From contig JAEEXI010000007.1 of NCBI GenBank assembly GCA_016291495.1, forward strand, positions 62,001 through 126,000: a DNA stretch of 64,000 bases. Direction: 5' to 3'. This document shows positions 1 through 16,386 of this stretch, piece after piece; the first letter of the stretch is position 1; every line of letters starts with the position of its first letter. Below the pieces are notes generated by a model. It made no database searches, was not told where the DNA came from, and worked only from the letters and a program-made list of their open reading frames with translations. Source of the DNA: Prevotella sp. (GTDB lineage Bacteria; Bacteroidota; Bacteroidia; Bacteroidales; Bacteroidaceae). The position numbers and the translations under genes are program-made.

Positions 1-3042
<3,042 letters not shown>

Positions 3043-3068: not shown

Positions 3069-3144
3069 CAAAAGTACAAAAAATCCCCATTCGGTTGAAC
3101 CAAATGGGGAGAGTTTCTTTAGTTATGGAATGCAAACGTTTGCA
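3069..3144 (-). promoter_or_regulatory. malQ promoter: LacI-type palindrome TGCAAACGTTTGCA (3131-3144) and -7 element TACTTTTG (3069-3076, minus)
   Basis: Perfect 14-bp palindrome plus Bacteroidetes TAnnTTTG match upstream of malQ. Confidence 0.75.
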
Positions 3145-3145
3145 T

Positions 3146-4462
3146 CTACTTCTGCCTGATGATTGTGACGCAGGCAGCTCCGACGATTAGAAGCACACCC
3201 GACACCATCATCATGGTGGACTGGTGGCTACCAACCAGAGAGAGGACGATACCTCCGCAGAGAGCGGCGATAATCTGGGGAATACAGATGGTTCCGTTGA
3301 ACAAGCCCAGATAGGCACCCATGTGTCCGTAACCTTGCAGGGCATTGGTAACGAAGGTGAACGGCATGGCAAGCATGGCAGCCCAGGCACATCCGATTAA
3401 CAGGAAGGGGATGAACTGCAGATAGGCGTCATGTATAAACGGAACGAGGGCGAAACCGATACTTCCGATGATGAGGCTGACGGCATAGGCAGCCTTGGTA
3501 TTCTTGAACTGGGGTAGTACGGTAGCCCAGATGACAGAGCCGATAGCCTGTACAGCAAAGAGCACACCCACCCAGTTGCCTGCTGCCTGGAAATCGGCAC
3601 TGGCAGGATCGGTCGAATTCCATACGGTTTCAGCAATGGCGCCTGTCGAGTAGTTCCACATATAGAGGAAGGCCGCCCAGCAGAAGAACTGTACCAATCC
3701 TACCTTCCAGAAAGTAGAGGGTGCTTTTCGCAGCAAGGTGAACCAGTTGCCGGATGGCTCATCCTGCTCGTTCATCCCATCCTGCCCATTCACTCCATTA
3801 TACTCCGCATACTCCTGCGGATTCCACTCTTTCACCTTCGAGGTCGTATAGATGACACACAGAATCAGAATGGCGGCACCGATATAGAACGACCAGATGA
3901 CGCTGTCTGGTACTACACCCTTTTCAGCGACATTGCTGATGCCGATGAAGGTGAAGATAAATGGGAAGAGATAGCCTGCCACACTGCCTGCATTGCAGAG
4001 AAACGACTGGATACTGTATGCCTTAGCCTTCTGCTGCTCGTTGACCATGTCACCTACCAGCATCTTGAAAGGCTGCATCGCCATATTGATACTGGTGTCG
4101 AGGAACATCAGAGCGATGAGTCCGAACATCATCGCTGCACTGACTGCCAATCCCAGGGAACCGGCATTGGGTAACAGGCACATCACCAGGACGGCTACGG
4201 TGGCTCCTATAAACAAATAAGGTATACGTCGTCCGAAACGGGTCCATGTCTTGTCACTTAATGAACCTACAATCGGTTGCACCAGGATTCCCATCAATGG
4301 GGGCAGTATCCAGAAATAACTCAGGTTATGCGGATCGGCGCCTAAAGTGGCGAAGATGCGTGAGATATTGGCACTCTGGAGGGCATAGGCAATCTGTACT
4401 CCGAAGAATCCGAAACTTAGGTTCCATAAACTCCAAAACGATAAATTTGGTTTTTGTTTCAT
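3146..4462 (-). CDS. MFS / GPH-like sugar transporter (maltose/maltodextrin uptake)
   Basis: 438 aa, about 12 TM; MKQKPNLSFWSLWNLSFGFFGVQIAYALQSANISRIFATLGA typical of Bacteroidetes SUC/MalA-like transporters; starch locus. Confidence 0.88.
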   Translation of the reverse strand: MKQKPNLSFWSLWNLSFGFFGVQIAYALQSANISRIFATLGADPHNLSYFWILPPLMGILVQPIVGSLSDKTWTRFGRRIPYLFIGATVAVLVMCLLPNAGSLGLAVSAAMMFGLIALMFLDTSINMAMQPFKMLVGDMVNEQQKAKAYSIQSFLCNAGSVAGYLFPFIFTFIGISNVAEKGVVPDSVIWSFYIGAAILILCVIYTTSKVKEWNPQEYAEYNGVNGQDGMNEQDEPSGNWFTLLRKAPSTFWKVGLVQFFCWAAFLYMWNYSTGAIAETVWNSTDPASADFQAAGNWVGVLFAVQAIGSVIWATVLPQFKNTKAAYAVSLIIGSIGFALVPFIHDAYLQFIPFLLIGCAWAAMLAMPFTFVTNALQGYGHMGAYLGLFNGTICIPQIIAALCGGIVLSLVGSHQSTMMMVSGVLLIVGAACVTIIRQK

Positions 4463-4468
4463 AGCTTT

Positions 4469-5494
4469 TTATTTTGTTGTTCCTCTGATAATTAGGCGGG
4501 TACGCACGATGCGGCGCTCCATCTTGTCACGGGGGATGGTGCCTTCCACATGACCGATGAGGATGTCGGCAGCCTCTTCACCGACTTTCACACCCCGTTG
4601 CTCTACCGTAGTCAGCATGGGGTCACAGGCAACGGCACGCTGACCGTTGGTGAAACCGCAGATGGAGATGTCGTCCGGAACTTTGAAGCCCATGCGTTTG
4701 GCGGTATAGAGAATTCCTATTGCCGTATCGTCGTTGACGGCAAAGAATCCGTTGGGGGGGGCGGAACTTTGGAGAATCTCCGGGGTAATCGCTTCAGCAT
4801 CTGTCCGGTTGTCACAGAAACGCATTAGTTCCGGATCGGGCTGAATGCCGTGTTTCAACAAGGCATCCTTATAACCGTTGTAGCGGTTCTTGGAGATTTC
4901 CAATGTCATTGAAGAGCCATAGAACGCAATACGGTTACAGCCAGTCTCTATCAGGTGCGATACGGCATTATAGGCTCCCATATAGTCATCGACCACCACA
5001 CGGCTGGCGTTGACGCCTGTGCAGATACGGTCGTAAAAGACCAGTGGTACGCCAGCATCGATTAACCGTTGGAAATGGTCATACTTCTGAGTGTCCTTTG
5101 CTTGGGAGACAATGATACCGCACACCTTGTTCTCATAGAACCATTGGCAGATTCTGACCTCCTTTTCGTATTGCTCGTTACTTTGCGCTACTATGATACG
5201 GTAGCCGTGTGCGGAGGCCTCTTCTTCGATGCCGGAGAGGATGGACGAGAAGTAGAAGTGAGTGAACTCCGGGATGATGACCCCGATGACTTTGATGGGC
5301 TGTACTTTAGAATGGCGCAGTGACTCTGCAATTACGTTTGGGGTGAAATTATGTTCACGAGCATATTGCTGAATGGCGGCACGTCGCTCCGCAGAGATAC
5401 GGGGCGAGTCTTTCAAGGCTCGTGAGACGGTTGCCACGCTGATACCCAATTCGCGGGCAATGTCTTTCATCGTCAAGGGAGTATGCTCTTCCAT
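4469..5494 (-). CDS. LacI-family transcriptional regulator
   Basis: N-terminal HTH MKDIARELGISVATVSRALKDSPRISAERRAAI and periplasmic-binding-like domain; start set at MEEHTPLTMKDIA. Confidence 0.95.
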   Translation of the reverse strand: MEEHTPLTMKDIARELGISVATVSRALKDSPRISAERRAAIQQYAREHNFTPNVIAESLRHSKVQPIKVIGVIIPEFTHFYFSSILSGIEEEASAHGYRIIVAQSNEQYEKEVRICQWFYENKVCGIIVSQAKDTQKYDHFQRLIDAGVPLVFYDRICTGVNASRVVVDDYMGAYNAVSHLIETGCNRIAFYGSSMTLEISKNRYNGYKDALLKHGIQPDPELMRFCDNRTDAEAITPEILQSSAPPNGFFAVNDDTAIGILYTAKRMGFKVPDDISICGFTNGQRAVACDPMLTTVEQRGVKVGEEAADILIGHVEGTIPRDKMERRIVRTRLIIRGTTK

Positions 5495-5518: not shown

Positions 5519-5658
5519 CAAAGGTATAGAAAAGTTTCTTTCGGTGTTTTCTACCTTATTTATTTTATAGAGTGCCCAACGTGCAAACGTTTGCATTTCT
5601 TACATAACGAATTTAACTCAAAAAAAGTATGAACGAATGCAAACAAATTCTATCTTTG
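5519..5658. promoter_or_regulatory. Divergent lacI/susC promoter region with central operator TGCAAACGTTTGCA (5582-5595)
   Basis: -7 elements TACCTTTG (minus, 5519-5526) and TATCTTTG (plus, 5651-5658), each 56 nt from the palindrome edge. Confidence 0.8.
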
Positions 5659-5724: not shown

Positions 5725-8700
5725 ATGAAGCAGGTAAACATTACAACTCCGTTAAGGATGCTGGTCCTGATGCTAGGACTCTTTCTTTCGGTGGGAGCCT
5801 TTGCACAGATTGATGTCAAAGGTCATGTTAAGGATGCTCAAGGCGAACCGATTATCGGTGCGACGGTACGTGTAGTAGGAACACAGACTGCTACGGTATC
5901 TGACTTCGACGGTAATTTCGCCTTGAAGGCTAACCAAGGTGCTGACATTAGCGTGTCGTACGTGGGCTATCAGACCCAGACCGTGAAGGCAGCTGCTAAT
6001 CTCGAGATTACTCTTCAGGAGGATGCCGCTGTCCTCGACAACGTGGTTGTCATCGGTTACGGTCGTGCCAAGAAGAATGACCTGACCGGTTCTGTAACGG
6101 CTCTGAAACCTGATGAGATGAACCACGGTCTTCAGACTTCTGCACAGGACATGTTGCAGGGTAAGGTTGCCGGTGTGAATATCACGAACAGTGGTGGTGC
6201 TCCTGGTGCAGGTGCTACCATCCGTATCCGTGGTGGCTCGTCGCTGAATGCCTCTAACGATCCTCTGATTGTGATTGACGGTCTTGCTATGGATAGCTAT
6301 GGAGCCTCCGGTTCTGACAATGCACTCTCCATGGTCAACCCGAATGATATCGAGAGTTTCACAGTCTTGAAAGATGCTTCCGCTACTGCCATCTATGGTA
6401 GTCGCGCTTCTAACGGCGTGATCATCATCACTACCAAGAAGGGACGTAAGGGTGCTCGTCCTCAGATTTCTTACAATGGTAATGTGTCAGTGAGTACGGT
6501 AAAGAATACCCTTGACGTCATGAATGCAGACCAGTTTATTGATTTTGCAAAAGGACTGTCACAGCGTTATAAGGGCTATACCACTGATGAGGAATGGCTT
6601 GCAAGTCCGGAGTATGCCAACTTAGGCTACTATGACGAAGCAGGTAACCATTTGTTTGCTAATACCGATTGGCAGGATCAGATTTACCGTACTGCTGTCA
6701 GCACCGATCACAATATTACGCTGACTGGCGGACTGAAGAACATGCCTTACCGCGTATCGCTGGGCTATACTTACCAGAACGGTATCCTGAAGACCAGCAA
6801 CTACCAGCGCTATACTGCCAGTGTGAATGTTTCTCCCTCGTTCCTGGACGACCATCTGAACTTCAACATCAATGCGAAGGGAATGTACTCCAAGACACGT
6901 TGGGCCGATCAGGGCGCCATCGGCAGTGCTATGGGCATGGATCCGACGAAGCCCATTAATGCAAGTACAGCTCAGCAGGCAAAGGATTATGCCGGCTATT
7001 GGCAGTGGAGCTATCCTACCGTTCGCCCTGATACAGAGTGGACCAATGGTGTCAACAATACGGCAGTGGGTAACCCCGTTGCCCAGTTAAACAATCTAGA
7101 CAGTCAGGGTAAGACCAAGACTTTCATCGGTAACATTGAGGCTGACTATAAGATTCACGGTTTCGAGGACTTGCATCTTCACATGAATATGGGTGCTGAT
7201 GTGAGCAGGGGTAATACCAACTTTACCAACAGCCCGTATTCTTATAGTACTGGAACTTACTATTATGGTAGAACAGGTTGGGGCAAGCGTGATACGTACA
7301 ACCTCTCGTTCAACCTCTATGCACAGTATATGAAAGACTTTGCCAAAGTCCATCACTTGGATGTCATGGCAGGTTATGAGTGGCAGCACTTCCACCAGAA
7401 GTATGATTCGTTCGATACCGGTTACTATCCTCTGACGAATACAGAGCACCCAGGCGAGCAATATCTGCCCTCCGAGACATTGCCTTATGAGAGCGAGAAC
7501 TACCTCGTATCCTTCTTCGGTCGTCTGAACTACACCCTGATGGACCGCTATATGCTCACCTTCACGTTGCGTGATGACGGTTCTTCCCGTTTCTCTAAGG
7601 ATCAGCGCTGGGGTGTGTTCCCCTCTCTCGCCCTTGCATGGAAAATCAACGAAGAGCCGTTCCTGAAGAAAGCCAACTGGCTGTCAGACCTGAAGCTCCG
7701 CTTAGGCTGGGGTAAGACCGGTCAGCAGGAGGGTATTGGTGACTATACTTATATTCCAACTTACCTGCCTAACACGCAGGGCGCCTATTATATGCTGTTT
7801 GGCGAAGGCATTACCTATCGCCCAGACGCTTATAACGCCAATCTGACTTGGGAGAAGACTACCACATGGAACGTTGGTATCGACTTTGGTATCCTGAACG
7901 ACCGCTTGACAGCTAACATCGACTGGTACTATCGTAAGACGACCGACCTGATCAACGACGTCGTCATTCCTGTAGGAACTAACTTCGCCAATAAGGTGGT
8001 CAGCAATATCGGAGCCTTGCATAATACCGGTATTGAGCTGTCACTGAACTGGCGTGCTATCCAAAGCAAAGACTGGCAGTGGACATTGGGCTATAACTTT
8101 ACTTGGAACAAGAGTAAGATTGACGAATTGACCAAAGCCAACAATCCTAATTATAAGATCCTGCATGGAGGCTACGCTGCCGGTGACGGTACCACCAATG
8201 GTATCAAGGCATGGATGGTGGGTCATCCTGTAGAGGCGTTTTATACCTATCAGCAGGTATATGATGTGAACGGACAGCCAATTAACGGTCAGTTTGTAGA
8301 CCGTAACGGTAATGGAATCATTGATGAGGATGACCGCTATTTCTACAAGAAGAGTACTCCCGATGTGACCATGGGCTTTACCTCTAAGCTCATTTACAAG
8401 AACTGGGACTTCAGCTTCTCTGCTCGTGCCAGCATCAACAACTATGTGTATAACGCCGTCCAGGCAGGAACAGGCTCCAACCTGAACATCACACAGGTTT
8501 ATAATGGCAGTACTTGGCACAACGTCCTGGTGGATGTCGTTCCCAAGCAGTGGTATTCTTTGGTCGCACGTGAGTCGTTGAGCGACTACTTTATCCAGAA
8601 TGCCTCTTTCATCAAATTGGATAACATTACTCTTGGCTATTCGTTCAAGAAGTTCTTCTCACTGCCACTCACTGGTCGTGTGTATGCAACAGCTCAGAAC

Positions 8701-8814
8701 GTTCTTACGATTACGAAATACAAGGGTATCGATCCCGAAATCGATGGTGGCTATGATGGCAACATCTATCCACGTCCATTCGTCGGAATCCTTGGTCTGA
8801 ACTTGAATTTCTAA
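5725..8814 (+). CDS. susC: SusC/RagA-family TonB-linked outer membrane transporter
   Basis: 1029 aa; carboxypeptidase-like N-domain (GHVKDAQGEPIIGATVRVVGT), plug motif (VVVIGYGRAKKNDLTGSV), C-terminal barrel ending LGLNLNF. Confidence 0.96.
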   Translation: MKQVNITTPLRMLVLMLGLFLSVGAFAQIDVKGHVKDAQGEPIIGATVRVVGTQTATVSDFDGNFALKANQGADISVSYVGYQTQTVKAAANLEITLQEDAAVLDNVVVIGYGRAKKNDLTGSVTALKPDEMNHGLQTSAQDMLQGKVAGVNITNSGGAPGAGATIRIRGGSSLNASNDPLIVIDGLAMDSYGASGSDNALSMVNPNDIESFTVLKDASATAIYGSRASNGVIIITTKKGRKGARPQISYNGNVSVSTVKNTLDVMNADQFIDFAKGLSQRYKGYTTDEEWLASPEYANLGYYDEAGNHLFANTDWQDQIYRTAVSTDHNITLTGGLKNMPYRVSLGYTYQNGILKTSNYQRYTASVNVSPSFLDDHLNFNINAKGMYSKTRWADQGAIGSAMGMDPTKPINASTAQQAKDYAGYWQWSYPTVRPDTEWTNGVNNTAVGNPVAQLNNLDSQGKTKTFIGNIEADYKIHGFEDLHLHMNMGADVSRGNTNFTNSPYSYSTGTYYYGRTGWGKRDTYNLSFNLYAQYMKDFAKVHHLDVMAGYEWQHFHQKYDSFDTGYYPLTNTEHPGEQYLPSETLPYESENYLVSFFGRLNYTLMDRYMLTFTLRDDGSSRFSKDQRWGVFPSLALAWKINEEPFLKKANWLSDLKLRLGWGKTGQQEGIGDYTYIPTYLPNTQGAYYMLFGEGITYRPDAYNANLTWEKTTTWNVGIDFGILNDRLTANIDWYYRKTTDLINDVVIPVGTNFANKVVSNIGALHNTGIELSLNWRAIQSKDWQWTLGYNFTWNKSKIDELTKANNPNYKILHGGYAAGDGTTNGIKAWMVGHPVEAFYTYQQVYDVNGQPINGQFVDRNGNGIIDEDDRYFYKKSTPDVTMGFTSKLIYKNWDFSFSARASINNYVYNAVQAGTGSNLNITQVYNGSTWHNVLVDVVPKQWYSLVARESLSDYFIQNASFIKLDNITLGYSFKKFFSLPLTGRVYATAQNVLTITKYKGIDPEIDGGYDGNIYPRPFVGILGLNLNF

Positions 8815-8829
8815 ACCTAAAACAAGGAA

Positions 8830-10458
8830 ATGATTATGAAATTAAATAGTATCAAAACATTGATCCCTGCCGTAGCTTTGGCATTGTCAATGGGATTCAC
8901 GTCGTGCACCAAGGACCTGGATGTGGAGAATATCAACCCACGACAGACCAGTGACTTGAATACGGATGCACTGCTGAATAAGATTTATTCCAGCTTTGTC
9001 CTGACAGGACAGAAAGGTCCTGGTAGTAATGATGAATGGAAGGATATTAAAGACCTGGACGAAGGTCGTTCTGAATTCTTCCGTATGAGTTGGGAGCTGA
9101 ATGAGTTCACCTCTGATGAGGCCAGCTGGGTATGGTGGTCTGACGGTGGTTTGCGTGACCTCGTGACCAATACTTACTCTGAGGGTAATGAGCGTTGCAC
9201 AGGTTTCTACTATCGTGCTTATTTCACCATTACACTTTGTAATTTCTATCTTGATCAGGTGGCCGATGACGGTACTACAGATGTGAAGCAGAAACGTGCA
9301 GAAGTTCGTTTTATCCGTGCTTTGGCCTACTGGTATGTCATGGACCTCTTCGGAAATGCAGCTTTCACAGAGCATGTCAGTGCTGAACCAGGTGTGCGTT
9401 ATACCCGTGCAGATTACTTTGCATATATTGAAAAGGAGCTGACAGAGATAGAAGAAGACATGGGTGCGCCGGGTTCACTTCCTTATGGCCGTGTAGATAA
9501 GGTCGCCAACTGGCTGTTGAAGGCTCGTCTTTATCTGAATGCTGAGGTTTATACAGGAACCGCACGTTGGGCAGATGCCAAGACTTATGCAGAAAAAGCG
9601 ATTAACAATGGCTACTATCACCTGAATACTACAGGAAAGGGCGGCTATTCTGCTTATCAGTTGCTGTTCCTTGCTGATAACGACACCAATGGTGCTCAAT
9701 ATGAGGCAGTGTTCCCCATCTTGCATGATGGTATTAACACAACCAGTCATGGTGCGATGAACATGCTCGTATTGTCCAGTTATTCTGGTTCGATGAGTAA
9801 TGACATTCCTTCTGGAACGGATAATGGCTGGGGTCGATGCAACCGTGTAAAAGGAACATTGACAGACCGTTTCTTCGGATCGACGACAGTTCCTGCTACT
9901 GGTAATTTGGCCGAGATTATTGCCTTGGCAGGTGACGACCGTGCGCTGATTTATCCGAATAAGCCTTACTCCCGTTATATCACAGACCTTGACGATCAGG
10001 AAGTAGGCTACGGTTGTGTGAAGTTCCGCAATGTCCGTTCTGATGGCCAGCCTGCCAGTGCTCAAGCCAAGGTTGACACAGACCTGCCGTTGATGCGTCT
10101 TGCAGAGGCTTATCTGACTTATGCAGAAGCAGAGACCCGTCTGAATGGTAGCACCTCTGCCGCAACGGGTATGATTGATGCTCTGCGTAATCGTGCTCAC
10201 GCTTCAACCAAGAGTGCTTATTCTTTGGATGACATTTTCAACGAATGGTCGAAGGAGTTCTGGTTTGAGGGTCGCCGTCGTGTCGATATGATTCGTTTCG
10301 GACGCTTTGGCGGTCAGTCAAGTTTCCGTTGGGAGTGGATGGGTAACTCATATGAGGGTTCTCAGTTCCCTGCCTATCGTAATATCTTCCCGATACCTGT
10401 CAATGATCTTGAGAATAACCCGAATCTGAGACAAAATGACGGTTATCGCGACCAATAA
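8830..10458 (+). CDS. susD: SusD/RagB-family nutrient-binding outer membrane lipoprotein
   Basis: Lipobox (SMGFTSCTKD); SusD C-terminal pattern (EFWFEGRRRVDMIRFGRF, FPIPVNDLENNPNLRQNDGY); follows susC. Confidence 0.95.
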   Translation: MIMKLNSIKTLIPAVALALSMGFTSCTKDLDVENINPRQTSDLNTDALLNKIYSSFVLTGQKGPGSNDEWKDIKDLDEGRSEFFRMSWELNEFTSDEASWVWWSDGGLRDLVTNTYSEGNERCTGFYYRAYFTITLCNFYLDQVADDGTTDVKQKRAEVRFIRALAYWYVMDLFGNAAFTEHVSAEPGVRYTRADYFAYIEKELTEIEEDMGAPGSLPYGRVDKVANWLLKARLYLNAEVYTGTARWADAKTYAEKAINNGYYHLNTTGKGGYSAYQLLFLADNDTNGAQYEAVFPILHDGINTTSHGAMNMLVLSSYSGSMSNDIPSGTDNGWGRCNRVKGTLTDRFFGSTTVPATGNLAEIIALAGDDRALIYPNKPYSRYITDLDDQEVGYGCVKFRNVRSDGQPASAQAKVDTDLPLMRLAEAYLTYAEAETRLNGSTSAATGMIDALRNRAHASTKSAYSLDDIFNEWSKEFWFEGRRRVDMIRFGRFGGQSSFRWEWMGNSYEGSQFPAYRNIFPIPVNDLENNPNLRQNDGYRDQ

Positions 10459-10492
10459 GAATTAGGAATATAACATGATAATCCGAAAAGAT

Positions 10493-11671
10493 ATGAAAAA
10501 GATATATAATAGTCTGCTTTTAGCCATGGTAGCTGTATTGCCGATGCTCACTTCCTGTAGTGATGACAATGGCAGCAATCCTACGCTGACTTTGCCCGAG
10601 ACTTTCGTGCTTAATACACCGGAGTTTGCAGCAAATAATGTCTATGACTTGCCTGCTTCAAAGTTTGTGAACCTGACGGTCAATACCCAGCCTAATTATG
10701 GTGGCTGGCCTGCAGCAGTGACCTATGCGGTACAGATTTCTCTGGACGACAAGAATGCGGATGGTTGGAAAGAGCTTTCCGCCACCTATACCTCTACAGT
10801 TATCAATATCAATGCATCCGCCCTGAATGTTGCAGTATTGGAAATGTACCGTGCTGCTCATGAAGATGCTACTCCTGAGGGTGTTATGCCTCTATATGTA
10901 CGTCTTCGCGCATACCTGGCTGATTCTGATTATGAAAACTTAGGTGAGGTATTCTCTAATACGATTAAATTGAATGTACTGACTTATGAGCCTGAAACTG
11001 ATATAACATTGCCAACTCAGGTCTTTGTCTGTGGTAATTCTATCGATGAAGCTTGGACAACATGGAAACCGTTGACTCCTGTCTTTGATAGTGGAAAAGG
11101 CAAGGACGGACGTTTCTACACCATGATCTACAACGGTGCCGACGGCTTCAAGTGGGGCTTTAAGGAGAAAGACTGGTTCGGCTATGATATGATTGACGAG
11201 TTTGACAATCAGGTAGAAGGAATGGAAATCACGGCAGACGGCGATGGAAACATCGTATTCAGCAAAGCTGGCTGGTATGTACTGGAATTCATCACGAAGA
11301 TTGTTGGTGATGAGATTAAGGTGAAGCTGGTGGTTGCTCCTGGTAAGGCTTGCGTTACTGGTAACTGCGTGGATAATGGTAGCTGGAGCGGTGTTGAGAT
11401 GACGGCTCCTGCAGGCAAGGGCGAATGGACCTTCAGCGACTGGACACCTGCAGCAGGCGATCCTGCAGAGCTCCGAGCCTTTATCGTTGTTCCTGGCGAG
11501 GACTGGTGGCGTACAGAGTTTACCGTTGTCGACGGCAAGATCGTTTGGCGTGACAAGGAGCACAACTGTGATGGTAACTGGAGAGATGATGTTGGTCCAG
11601 AATACTCTATTGAGGTTATCGGTAAGACCTTGAAGGTGAACTTCGATAACAATACGGGTACTGTAGAATAA
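10493..11671 (+). CDS. SusE-like outer membrane lipoprotein
   Basis: Lipobox (LTSCSDDNG), SusE N-terminal Ig-like domain and C-terminal starch-binding-like domain; start at MKKIYNSLLL. Confidence 0.85.
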   Translation: MKKIYNSLLLAMVAVLPMLTSCSDDNGSNPTLTLPETFVLNTPEFAANNVYDLPASKFVNLTVNTQPNYGGWPAAVTYAVQISLDDKNADGWKELSATYTSTVININASALNVAVLEMYRAAHEDATPEGVMPLYVRLRAYLADSDYENLGEVFSNTIKLNVLTYEPETDITLPTQVFVCGNSIDEAWTTWKPLTPVFDSGKGKDGRFYTMIYNGADGFKWGFKEKDWFGYDMIDEFDNQVEGMEITADGDGNIVFSKAGWYVLEFITKIVGDEIKVKLVVAPGKACVTGNCVDNGSWSGVEMTAPAGKGEWTFSDWTPAAGDPAELRAFIVVPGEDWWRTEFTVVDGKIVWRDKEHNCDGNWRDDVGPEYSIEVIGKTLKVNFDNNTGTVE

Positions 11672-11681
11672 TAAAAAAATA

Positions 11682-13166
11682 ATGAATCGTATGAAGAAAC
11701 ATATGTTATTAGGTGGAATGCTGCTCTGTGCAGCAGCATTCACCTCTTGTAACGAGGATTTTGACAACTGGGCAAGTCCACAGTCAAATGTGCCGGGTGC
11801 TGATGTTGCACCCTATGGTATCACGGTGGCTCCTGGCAGTCAGTCGAATATCGTGATGGATAATGCCACTGAAAACTCGCAGATTATTGCAGTATCTACC
11901 AAACAGAAGGAAGTGGCTTCCATCGAATTGAGGGGTATGACTATCAATGGAGTAAATCTTCCCTATACTTATGAAAAGGGTGCTGTCTCTGTGAATACCC
12001 AGAAGTTGGATTCTCTGGTAGAGATTTCTATGCTCGACCGTTCTGCCACTCCTCACGCTGTGACGGTAAAGACGCTGTGGTCGGCCGTTTTGGCAACGGG
12101 TGAGGCTGTTCCCTTTGAGTCAGAGACAGAGATTACGCTGACCCCGTATTCGAATACTCCAAAAATAGATGTGAATGGTTATGTCCTGTTGGGTGACTTC
12201 GCAAGCGGTATGTGGGACAAATCGAATCCTGTTAGAATGACACAGGTTGAGCCTGGCGTCTATCAGGCATTGGTGACGACTAAAAGTGAAGGAGACAACT
12301 GGTATAAATTCTATAGCGGAACACCATGGGCAGAGAGTGCAGATCCAGACTGGGGCGCAGTCGATGGTGCCGCTATGGGTTGTGAGATTAATGGTGATGG
12401 CACTTCTCCTAACTTGCTTGTTTGGAAGGATGACCCACGTTTTGGTAAGTTCGAGACTCCTGTTATCAAAGGAGCTGGTGACTGGCTGGTTACCATTGAT
12501 ATGAACAAGTTGTATTTCAAGTATGAGCCGAAGGAGACGAAGTATTATGTAGTTGGCGAACCTAATGGTTGGAGTACGGATAATAAGAATTGTCTGTTCT
12601 ATGCACAGGGCGGCAATGTTTATAACTATACCACCTATTGGCCTAACCAGTGGAGTCTGAAGATCTGGGATCAGGATCACTTTGGTGACTGGGCTGCTTG
12701 TTGGGGAGGCGTAAATGGCTCTACCGAAGCGAAGGGTACACTCGTGAATAGTGATGCTGGTGCTTTCGGACCGAGTGAGTCTGGTGCATGGGCTATTCTG
12801 ACCATCAATATGGGTACGAAGGAATATGAGTGGACCATCATAGAGGAGCCTACTACCTACCAGAGCATTTCACTCATTGGCGGTTTCAACGAATGGAGTG
12901 GTGATGTTGATCTTACACAGTTGGAGAAAGCTCCACATAACTGGTATGTCCGCTACACTCTCGAGAGCGATACCGAGTTGAAGTTCCGTGCTAACCATAA
13001 TTGGGATACCAAAGACTGGGGTAGCGACGGTAGTGGTGAAATTAACGAGGAGAAGTACTATGTAACACCTGGCGGTGGCAATATCAAAGTTCCTGCTGGT
13101 ACTTACGACTTCTATCTGAACGACATCACCGGCAACTGGAGTATTGCTTGGGTAGCAGCAGAATAA
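11682..13166 (+). CDS. SusF/SusE-like starch-binding outer membrane lipoprotein
   Basis: Lipobox (AFTSCNEDFD); repeated starch-binding modules (VVGEPNGWSTDNKN, LIGGFNEWSGDVDL). Confidence 0.85.
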   Translation: MNRMKKHMLLGGMLLCAAAFTSCNEDFDNWASPQSNVPGADVAPYGITVAPGSQSNIVMDNATENSQIIAVSTKQKEVASIELRGMTINGVNLPYTYEKGAVSVNTQKLDSLVEISMLDRSATPHAVTVKTLWSAVLATGEAVPFESETEITLTPYSNTPKIDVNGYVLLGDFASGMWDKSNPVRMTQVEPGVYQALVTTKSEGDNWYKFYSGTPWAESADPDWGAVDGAAMGCEINGDGTSPNLLVWKDDPRFGKFETPVIKGAGDWLVTIDMNKLYFKYEPKETKYYVVGEPNGWSTDNKNCLFYAQGGNVYNYTTYWPNQWSLKIWDQDHFGDWAACWGGVNGSTEAKGTLVNSDAGAFGPSESGAWAILTINMGTKEYEWTIIEEPTTYQSISLIGGFNEWSGDVDLTQLEKAPHNWYVRYTLESDTELKFRANHNWDTKDWGSDGSGEINEEKYYVTPGGGNIKVPAGTYDFYLNDITGNWSIAWVAAE

Positions 13167-13380: not shown

Positions 13381-14472
13381 ATGATAAAAAGGAAGTGTCT
13401 GATGATGCTATTGATGGTCATGACTATGACTGTCAATGCACAACCGAAGAAGTATCTTGGCGGTGATATTTCTATGCTGCCATCGTATCAGGAAAAAGGG
13501 ACCGTCTATAGGGATGATGAAGGAAAGGCCGTCGAACTGCTGCCTTGGCTGAAACAGCAGGGATGGAATATGATCCGCGTGAGACTATTTGTAGAACCTG
13601 AGAATGCCCCACAAGCGAATAAGGATGAGGGGGTATGTCAGGATTTGAATTACGTTATCGGTCTTTGTCAGCAAATCAAGAAGGCGGGTATGCAGGTGAT
13701 GCTCGATTTCCACTATAGTGACACCTGGGCCGATCCTGCCAAGCAATTCACCCCGAAACGATGGAAAGAGTGTAGCCCTCAGGCGATGACAGACAGCGTC
13801 TATGCCTATACCCGTGCTTCGCTGATAGCTCTTAAAAAAGCGGGTGTTACACCAGAATTAATTCAAGTAGGTAATGAAATCACCAACGGCATGCTATGGC
13901 CTACAGGTAAGCTCGACCCCTCAAAGGCGGAGGGCTTTAATACACTCTGCCAATTCCTCAAAGCAGGTTGTAAGGCTTGTAGAGAGGTTTGTCCTCTGTC
14001 GCAGATTATCATCCATACGGAAAAAGCAGGAGATTGGGACATCACTCGGAACTATTATCAACAGCTGCGCAACCGTCAGGTAGATTACGATATTATCGGA
14101 CTCAGTTACTATCCCATGTGGCACAAGTCGATTCCAAATCTGGGACAGACAATCAAGAATCTGTCACGGCTCTTCCCGGAGAAACCCATCATGATTGTCG
14201 AGACCGCCGCCTACTATTCACATGAGAACGATCCGTGGGCGAAGGAAGACACCTATGCGGAGTTTTACCCCATCAGCGTAGAGGGACAGCGACAGTTTAC
14301 GGTAGAGCTGATGGAGGAATTGCGTAAGCATCAGAACGTGACGGGTGTTTTCTGGTGGTTCCCTGAGGAGAATGCCAGCGGCAGCGAGGTAACGAAGGGG
14401 TGGCTGAACCGTGGATTGTTCGATAATCATACAGGCAGGGCAATGCCTGCTTTCTATGAGTTCAGATGGTAA
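13381..14472 (+). CDS. GH53 arabinogalactan endo-beta-1,4-galactanase
   Basis: YLGGDISMLPSYQEKGTVYRDDEGKAVELLPWLKQQGWNMIRVRLFVEP; MLDFHYSDTWADPAKQFTPKRW; QVGNEITNGMLWP; signal peptide. Confidence 0.9.
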   Translation: MIKRKCLMMLLMVMTMTVNAQPKKYLGGDISMLPSYQEKGTVYRDDEGKAVELLPWLKQQGWNMIRVRLFVEPENAPQANKDEGVCQDLNYVIGLCQQIKKAGMQVMLDFHYSDTWADPAKQFTPKRWKECSPQAMTDSVYAYTRASLIALKKAGVTPELIQVGNEITNGMLWPTGKLDPSKAEGFNTLCQFLKAGCKACREVCPLSQIIIHTEKAGDWDITRNYYQQLRNRQVDYDIIGLSYYPMWHKSIPNLGQTIKNLSRLFPEKPIMIVETAAYYSHENDPWAKEDTYAEFYPISVEGQRQFTVELMEELRKHQNVTGVFWWFPEENASGSEVTKGWLNRGLFDNHTGRAMPAFYEFRW

Positions 14473-14474
14473 CG

Positions 14475-14551
14475 TGCAACCGTTTGCATTCGTGTGATAA
14501 TATTAATTGGAAATAGAATGAAAGCACGTTTTGGAAATAGTGTTATCTTTG
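14475..14551 (+). promoter_or_regulatory. Amylase promoter: LacI-type operator TGCAACCGTTTGCA (14475-14488) and -7 TATCTTTG (14544-14551)
   Basis: Operator differs by one base from the perfect palindromes; spacing to -7 is 56 nt. Confidence 0.75.
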
Positions 14552-14577: not shown

Positions 14578-16386
14578 ATGAGAAAGATTTACACAACCCT
14601 TTTATTGTTTGTCGCCTCTCTGACCATTTCGGCAGAGGACTCTAATGTAGGATGGCCTGCCAACTATGACGGTGTGATGCTTCAGGGCTTCTATTGGAAT
14701 TCTTATACGGATACTAATTGGGCAAACTTGCAGTCACAGGCAGATGAACTCTCTCAGTTCTTTAACCTGATATGGGTACCGCAGAGCGGTCGTTGTGAAA
14801 ACTTGACCAATCAGATGGGATATACCGACATCTGGTGGCTCGACCATAGGAGTGCTTTTGGTACGGAGGAGCAGTTGCGTTCCATGATAGAGAAGTTCAA
14901 TGAGAAGAACGTAGGCATCATCGAGGATGTGGTAATCAACCACAAAAATGGTAGCACGAGTTGGTGCGATTTCCCCAACGAATCGAAGAACGGTTATACA
15001 CTCACTTGGGATAACACCGACTTCTCCGGAATCTGTAAGACGGATGAGTGTAATACCGAAAAAAACTTGAAGGAATGGGCAACAGGTGCGTATAGCGGCA
15101 AGAAAGCTACAGGTGCCAATGATACAGGTGACGACTTCCCTGGCGCCCGCGACTTAGATCATACCAATGCCACCGTACAGCAGAATATCAAAACCTATCT
15201 TGACTTCCTATTGAAAGACCTTGGCTATACCGGTTTTCGTTATGACATGGTGAAGGGTTATGCACCACAATATACACAATTATATAATAACTCTGCTAAG
15301 CCAACTTATTCCGTAGGTGAGTATTGGGATGGTGACAAGGCGAAAGTAACAGCATGGATCGATGGTACGGGCAAGACTAGTGCTGCCTTTGACTTCCCAT
15401 TGAAATATCGCATCAACGATGCCTTCAGCAACAGTCACTGGGAGAAATTGAATGATGCAGTATTGGCAACGGACGCCAACTATGCCCGCTATGCAGTGAC
15501 CTTTGTGGATAATCATGACACCTATCGGGATGATAATGCTTTGAAGAATAATATCTGTGCCGCTAATGCCTTTATCCTGACCATGCCAGGCACTCCTTGC
15601 TTGTTCCTACCCCATTGGAAGGATTACAAGGGCACGTTGAAGAGGCTGATAGCAGCCCGTAAGGCTGTGGGCATCAATAACCAGAGCACCATTTTGGAAT
15701 CGACGGTCAAAGGAGCCGGCTATGTCTTGAAAGTGCAGGGGACGATGGGGGTTGCCATGCTGATGCTGGGTGGTTCAACGGGTGTGAGCACGTCAGGCTT
15801 CCAGTTGGTGGCAGAAGGCAGAAAGTATAAACTATATGTGAGCGATGGAGTTGATGTTTCTGCTGTCACCGCCATTACCGATACTGATGCGAAGTCGGAG
15901 GCAACCACAACCATCCCTTCTGACTGTACGGTGAGCGAAGGGGAAATCTGTGCCTTCTTCGAGGCCCCGGTGTCTTTCGGTTCTACTGTCTATTGCTATC
16001 GTTGGGATGAGAATTATCAATACACGGGCTCATGGCCAGGTGTTAAATGTACGAAGGTGTGTACCGTTGGTGGTGGAAAGAGTGTCTATAAATGGACCTT
16101 TAAAGAGTCAGAAAAGAAGTCTCACTCCGCTACTAATGAGGGAATCATCTTCAATAATAATAGCGGTAAGCAAACTGGTGATATGGTGTTTCTAAATGGC
16201 GGCTATTATCTGGAGGATGGCCTGTGGGATAGCGTTTCGTCAGCAACGGACATCCTTTCGGTGAAAGGAACTGCTACACAGACCCAGGATGATAATTGGT
16301 ACGACCTCAATGGTCGCAAGCTCAGTGGCGAGCCGTCGGCTAAGGGCGTCTATCTCAAAGGCGGAAAGAAATACCTATTTAAATAA
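14578..16386 (+). CDS. Secreted alpha-amylase (GH13) with C-terminal starch-binding-like and sorting-like domains
   Basis: VMLQGFYWNSYTDTNWANLQSQADEL, GFRYDMVKGYAP, FVDNHDTYRDDN; C-terminal VYCYRWDENYQYTGSWPGVK; tail YDLNGRKLSGEPSAKGVYLKGGKKYLFK; start at MRKIYTTLLLF. Confidence 0.92.
   Translation: MRKIYTTLLLFVASLTISAEDSNVGWPANYDGVMLQGFYWNSYTDTNWANLQSQADELSQFFNLIWVPQSGRCENLTNQMGYTDIWWLDHRSAFGTEEQLRSMIEKFNEKNVGIIEDVVINHKNGSTSWCDFPNESKNGYTLTWDNTDFSGICKTDECNTEKNLKEWATGAYSGKKATGANDTGDDFPGARDLDHTNATVQQNIKTYLDFLLKDLGYTGFRYDMVKGYAPQYTQLYNNSAKPTYSVGEYWDGDKAKVTAWIDGTGKTSAAFDFPLKYRINDAFSNSHWEKLNDAVLATDANYARYAVTFVDNHDTYRDDNALKNNICAANAFILTMPGTPCLFLPHWKDYKGTLKRLIAARKAVGINNQSTILESTVKGAGYVLKVQGTMGVAMLMLGGSTGVSTSGFQLVAEGRKYKLYVSDGVDVSAVTAITDTDAKSEATTTIPSDCTVSEGEICAFFEAPVSFGSTVYCYRWDENYQYTGSWPGVKCTKVCTVGGGKSVYKWTFKESEKKSHSATNEGIIFNNNSGKQTGDMVFLNGGYYLEDGLWDSVSSATDILSVKGTATQTQDDNWYDLNGRKLSGEPSAKGVYLKGGKKYLFK

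Follow-up and report, generated by a model that had tools for sequence, protein, structure and literature searches.

The 64-kb stretch of Prevotella sp. DNA analyzed here, referred to as the window, contains the genes susCDEF, divergently oriented from a gene for a LacI-family regulator that is followed by genes for an MFS sugar transporter and malQ, as well as a gene for a susG-like amylase (Table 1). The deduced regulator scored above the cut-off for PF00356 and PF13377, corresponding to a LacI helix-turn-helix at the N-terminus and a periplasmic-binding-protein-like core. It aligns to LacI only as far as residue 329, ending before the position of the tetramerisation helix. A GH53 gene (the family is named for endo-β-galactanases) is located at 13381-14472, flanked by susF and susG. 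GH53 genes were also found in a second genus of the family, directly under this starch-type operator at 55 and 58 nt (L189 and L203); there are hints that such enzymes take part in starch use, or that they are of other specificity.

Table 1. Genes, operators and promoter elements of the alpha-glucan locus (positions refer to the window).
Feature	Position	Strand	Remarks
malQ	616..3042	-	4-alpha-glucanotransferase (GH77, CBM20)
malQ -7 box TACTTTTG	3069..3076	-	55 nt from operator; predicted start site ~3064
Terminator-like hairpin with U run	3078..3110	-	In malQ operator-to-box spacer; -19 kcal/mol, z -4.7
malQ operator TGCAAACGTTTGCA	3131..3144	.	Upstream of malQ
MFS sugar transporter	3146..4462	-	Downstream of lacI
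lacI	4469..5494	-	Regulator of the LacI family (341 aa) lacking the tetramerisation helix; start codon at 5494
lacI -7 box TACCTTTG	5519..5526	-	Predicted start site ~5514 (box-to-start offset per PMC9723704)
Operator TGCAAACGTTTGCA common to lacI and susC	5582..5595	.	Palindrome
susC -7 box TATCTTTG	5651..5658	+	Predicted start site ~5663 (box-to-start offset per PMC9723704)
susC	5725..8814	+	TonB-dependent receptor
susD	8830..10458	+
susE and susF	10475..13166	+	10475-11671 and 11682-13166
susG operator TGCAACCGTTTGCA	14475..14488	.	Upstream of susG-like gene
susG -7 box TATCTTTG	14544..14551	+	56 nt from operator; predicted start site ~14556
susG-like gene	14578..16386	+	GH13 amylase with CBM26

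A scan of the window allowing up to two mismatches yielded three operator matches versus 0.24 expected, all of them at alpha-glucan promoters and 55-56 nt from a TAnnTTTG box. The operator is an inverted repeat with a central CG, occurring as TGCAAACGTTTGCA or with changes at positions 6 and 9, as is typical of LacI/GalR operators; the co-occurrence of gene and operator suggests that the regulator is its binding partner. An earlier note on this DNA had placed the operator exactly midway between the divergent lacI and susC -7 boxes, which proved correct to the base: measured from the edge of the operator, the T of the -7 box is 56 nt away at susC (5651) and 56 nt away at lacI (5526). If the TAnnTTTG box is taken as covering positions -12 to -5 (PMC9723704), the operator is centered at -74.5 at susC, lacI and susG, and at -73.5 at malQ, in agreement with the value near -74 given before for the divergent pair. 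At all four promoters of the window the operator is a single site upstream of the core promoter and does not overlap with it. The operators of malQ and susG, absent from the earlier note, represent two further members of the same regulon, and their distances of 55 and 56 nt indicate that the geometry is general and not peculiar to the lacI/susC region. A half-site TGCAAAC noted near susC is indeed present at 5638-5644. Its identical occurrence in only 3 of 76 susC promoters led us to reject it as a second binding site, and it is probably incidental.

The spacing was further analyzed in 80 Prevotella-type loci gathered by a search with the regulator protein (orthologues with 76-95% identity), in which every TAnnTTTG up to 120 nt downstream of an operator with at most one mismatch was counted as a pair. 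In the window and the 80 loci together, the distance between operator and -7 box amounted to 55-57 nt in 172 of 178 pairs; many of the genomes are related, so that this count, like the others and the p-values given below, is not composed of independent cases. Mean spacings were 55.8 nt at susC (sd 0.41, n = 76), 56.0 nt at lacI (sd 0.63, n = 78), 55.3 nt at malQ (sd 0.56, n = 20) and 55.7 nt at susG (sd 0.45, n = 11). The distance from the -7 box to the start codon varied with an sd of 16 nt at susC, 31 nt at lacI and 41 nt at susG, whereas the sd of the spacer was only 0.4-0.6; at malQ, the box-to-start-codon distance was also tight (sd 1.4). Both arms of the divergent lacI/susC pairs measured 55-57 nt in 75 of 75 cases, with exactly 56 nt on either side in 41 of them. 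Several seeming exceptions carried a degenerate box (TAACTTCG, TATCTTCG, TAACTTTA or TAATTTTA) at 55-56 nt. Independent support for the spacing derives from the agreement of four non-homologous promoters per genome and of several families; palindromes scrambled as a control occurred too seldom in these loci for a test.

In 14 relatives (L014, L016, L021, L025, L026, L029, L031-L035, L037, L046 and L079), an operator-like palindrome lies 22-43 nt before the malQ start codon without a -7 box at 55-57 nt. These palindromes are possibly left over from a promoter that was deleted, or have a different role, and they fall outside the activator model developed below. In 19 further loci, no operator was found within 400 nt upstream of malQ.

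The core promoters were then compared with regard to the -33 element. Those promoters of the same loci that have no operator showed the expected TTTG at -24 to -21 relative to the T of the -7 box. A TTG starting at -23 to -20 from this T was present in 23 of 49 such promoters versus 8 of 107 operator-linked ones (p = 4e-8). Listed by target, a TTG near -33 was found in 2 of 49 susC, 4 of 67 lacI, 0 of 10 susG and 4 of 16 malQ promoters, and in 3 of 35 promoters of the second genus; the value for malQ counts against a contact activator. In the window, neither TTG nor TTTG occurs at the -33 position of susC, for which no good element had been recognized before, and the same applies to lacI.

The spacers between operator and -7 box contain no shared element, and their sequences are unrelated between promoters. 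The malQ spacer contains a terminator-like hairpin positioned to end the upstream lacI-transporter transcript, a purpose of its own for this sequence; together with the unrelated spacers elsewhere, this indicates that the length is kept rather than the sequence. Many Prevotella susC promoters (L011-L090), which have no TTG at -33, share a conserved AACG-rich stretch (AACGAA) approximately 19 nt before the T of the -7 box; the stretch is absent in the second genus.

In the second genus, TGCAANCGNTTGCA followed by TAnnTTTG within 37-67 nt showed a spacing of 54-57 nt in 116 of 123 cases; the sites inspected precede susC, lacI, GH13 and GH53 genes. Among 393 Bacteroidales genomes, with the own family excluded, 25 of 52 matches fell at 54-57 nt (p ~1e-9 versus a uniform spread); the two operator scans of Bacteroidales covered the same genomes and are not independent of each other. 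The spacing in these other families peaked at 55-56 nt, and the genes downstream were almost all related to alpha-glucans: the 54-57 nt sites precede susC-like receptors, a divergent LacI gene, 4-alpha-glucanotransferases, amylases, a cyclomaltodextrinase, DUF3417 glycan phosphorylases and a CBM26 protein. The main exception is purC/crcB. At L172 (1501-1577), which belongs to another Bacteroidales family, purC and crcB are divergent and have an operator of the same type 56 nt away from their -7 boxes, so the spacing rule may also apply to a different LacI-type protein.

Sites at other spacings in the other families mostly had unrelated genes downstream. This also holds for a cluster at 43-47 nt suggestive of helical-turn phasing (10 of 27, p = 0.02), in which one 46-nt case (L104) has an additional box at 55 nt. 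A Rayleigh test outside the main peak in these families was not significant, and no claim is built on the cluster. In L091 and L103, operators lie 45-46 nt from the -7 box before genes for phosphoglycerate kinase and a PEP carboxykinase-like protein (named by eye); their regulator is possibly Cra-like and placed one helical turn closer. Outside Bacteroidales, a class-wide search gave scattered matches that were partly in coding regions. A LacI paralogue of the own genome (L176, 1428-1467, contig C4) has an operator CGTAAACGTTTGCG and, only 19 nt away, the -7 box TATTTTTG of its own promoter, the place expected of a repressor site; a 55-57 nt rule for every LacI paralogue is therefore unsupported and was rejected.

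By established promoter biology, a single common element kept at a constant distance, to within approximately 1 nt, from a core promoter without an upstream recognition element is the hallmark of direct-contact activation. Classical steric repression is ineffective from -74 and needs no constant distance there. Since the operator lies approximately 55 nt from the -7 box throughout, steric repression was rejected at these promoters, and the former objection that the site is too far upstream for it is upheld. The arrangement strongly suggests that starch use is switched on through contact with RNA polymerase. Most likely, the LacI-family protein acts as a dimer and activates susC, malQ, susG and its own gene through a class I-like contact. 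The spacing, its conservation, the missing -33 element and the content of the regulon are read from the sequence, and from these data we infer binding, the sign of regulation, the polymerase surface and the ligand. The dimer would bind TGCAAACGTTTGCA and activate from one fixed place centered around -74, i.e. 55-57 nt upstream of TAnnTTTG, and the polymerase probably needs this contact at the targets that have no TTG at -33. A class I-like contact is likely, perhaps with the alpha C-terminal domain of polymerase. Because the operator and the dimer are two-fold symmetric, the same face would be shown to polymerase on either side, so that one site could serve both susC and lacI, and the position exactly midway would be one spacing rule applied twice. 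The predicted regulon in this genome comprises lacI with the MFS transporter gene, susCDEF, malQ and susG; with lacI under the same operator geometry, positive autoregulation of lacI is expected. Intracellular maltose or a malto-oligosaccharide is probably the inducer of activation, the ligand and its sign being deduced from a regulon content of maltodextrin uptake and breakdown.

A protein acting with either sign from the same site would also fit a site placed equally for two promoters: the ligand-free form could repress and the ligand-bound form activate, or the sus genes could be activated and the own gene repressed. LacI-family proteins can be dual, as exemplified by GalR on P1 and P2 (PMC4693257) and by Cra (PMC4052901). 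Such a dual switch is unlikely, as the lacI promoters share both the spacing of the targets and the missing -33 element, contrary to opposite signs. A similarly small chance, if anything a lower one, is given to repression by contact inhibition, in which contact of polymerase with a dimer at approximately -74 keeps the open complex from forming until maltose releases the dimer. It would require the same fixed geometry and has a LacI-family precedent in GalR at OE of galP1 (PMC4693257), but promoters without a -33 element offer little basal activity to repress.

The earlier note had proposed that the LacI protein acts at both promoters either as an activator or by DNA looping. The former is strongly supported by the constancy of the spacing and by the lack of a -33 element. 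Looping, by which the protein would bridge two operators, could draw on the three operators of the window; these are, however, separated by 2.4 and 8.9 kb, and every one is located at a promoter of its own, at the same distance to within approximately 1 nt, and the protein, whose alignment with LacI stops short, has no C-terminal tetramerisation helix. With only three matches in 64 kb, no second operator was found near the lacI-susC intergenic region or within looping distance of the same promoter, and looping was rejected as very improbable. That the spacing merely reflects inheritance of whole promoters with few indels, leaving the operator free to act in any way (e.g. by blocking another activator), is hardly credible: many genomes are related, but four non-homologous promoters in one genome agree on the spacing, the 5' leaders of the same promoters vary widely in length, and other genera and families show the spacing with unrelated spacers and no other common spacer element.

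The proposed contact activation resembles that at CRP class I promoters, where a dimer likewise binds a single upstream site whose distance from the core promoter is set, and at which further helical turns are permitted. CRP belongs to another protein family and acts on another core promoter, whereas here a -33/-7 core is combined with a center around -74, and other helical turns were not seen in the regulon. The class I site of CRP is at -61.5 (PMC4693257). Closer in protein family is GalR at E. coli galP2, likewise a LacI-family dimer upstream of the core promoter that activates by contact from OE on a defined face (PMC4693257). GalR, however, mainly represses and loops with a second operator, while in the present regulon every promoter has a single operator without a partner for looping, and the distance does not differ between targets. 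IdnR is another LacI-family activator, and to our knowledge neither Cra/FruR nor IdnR acts from a single fixed distance across its whole regulon. Cra, of the LacI family as well, activates some promoters, and a large comparative study of the family included Bacteroides LacI proteins for uronates, Prevotella being absent from its text (PMC4052901). LacI-family activators are already known; a description of a fixed, order-wide, symmetric geometry was not found in the literature.

The starch genes of Bacteroides thetaiotaomicron are activated by SusR, a membrane protein with a periplasmic sensor that recognizes direct repeats with a long spacer (PMC3878776). In their sus loci, both B. fragilis and B. 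uniformis have a LacI-type regulator and no SusR, and the B. fragilis locus also has an MFS transporter (PMC11633381). SusR is unrelated to LacI; the regulator studied here has LacI domains and an inverted-repeat operator, so it is not of the SusR type. OsuR of Bacteroides fragilis reportedly activates a starch operon and mediates its induction by maltose (Spence et al. 2006). As a lead, OsuR may be the same regulator as the LacI-type protein described here. If so, the activator role would already have been shown genetically, and the geometry, its conservation, the missing -33 element and the use of one symmetric site in two directions would be new.

In a wider reading, to which we give somewhat less than an even chance, a LacI-family dimer would replace SusR as master activator across Bacteroidales. 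Standing at a single obligatory distance, its ligand-bound form would substitute for the missing -33 contact, and a single symmetric dimer would drive two divergent promoters as a self-amplifying maltose switch. The LacI family is best known for proteins that switch genes off, and its members are usually taken for repressors when annotation relies on sequence alone. A spacing rule that can be read from genomes would separate activators from repressors. Throughout this order of bacteria dominant in the gut and rumen, it would predict the members of the regulon and where transcription starts. It would also provide a clean system for studying activation of the Bacteroidota polymerase, and suggests maltose-responsive promoters of simple design.
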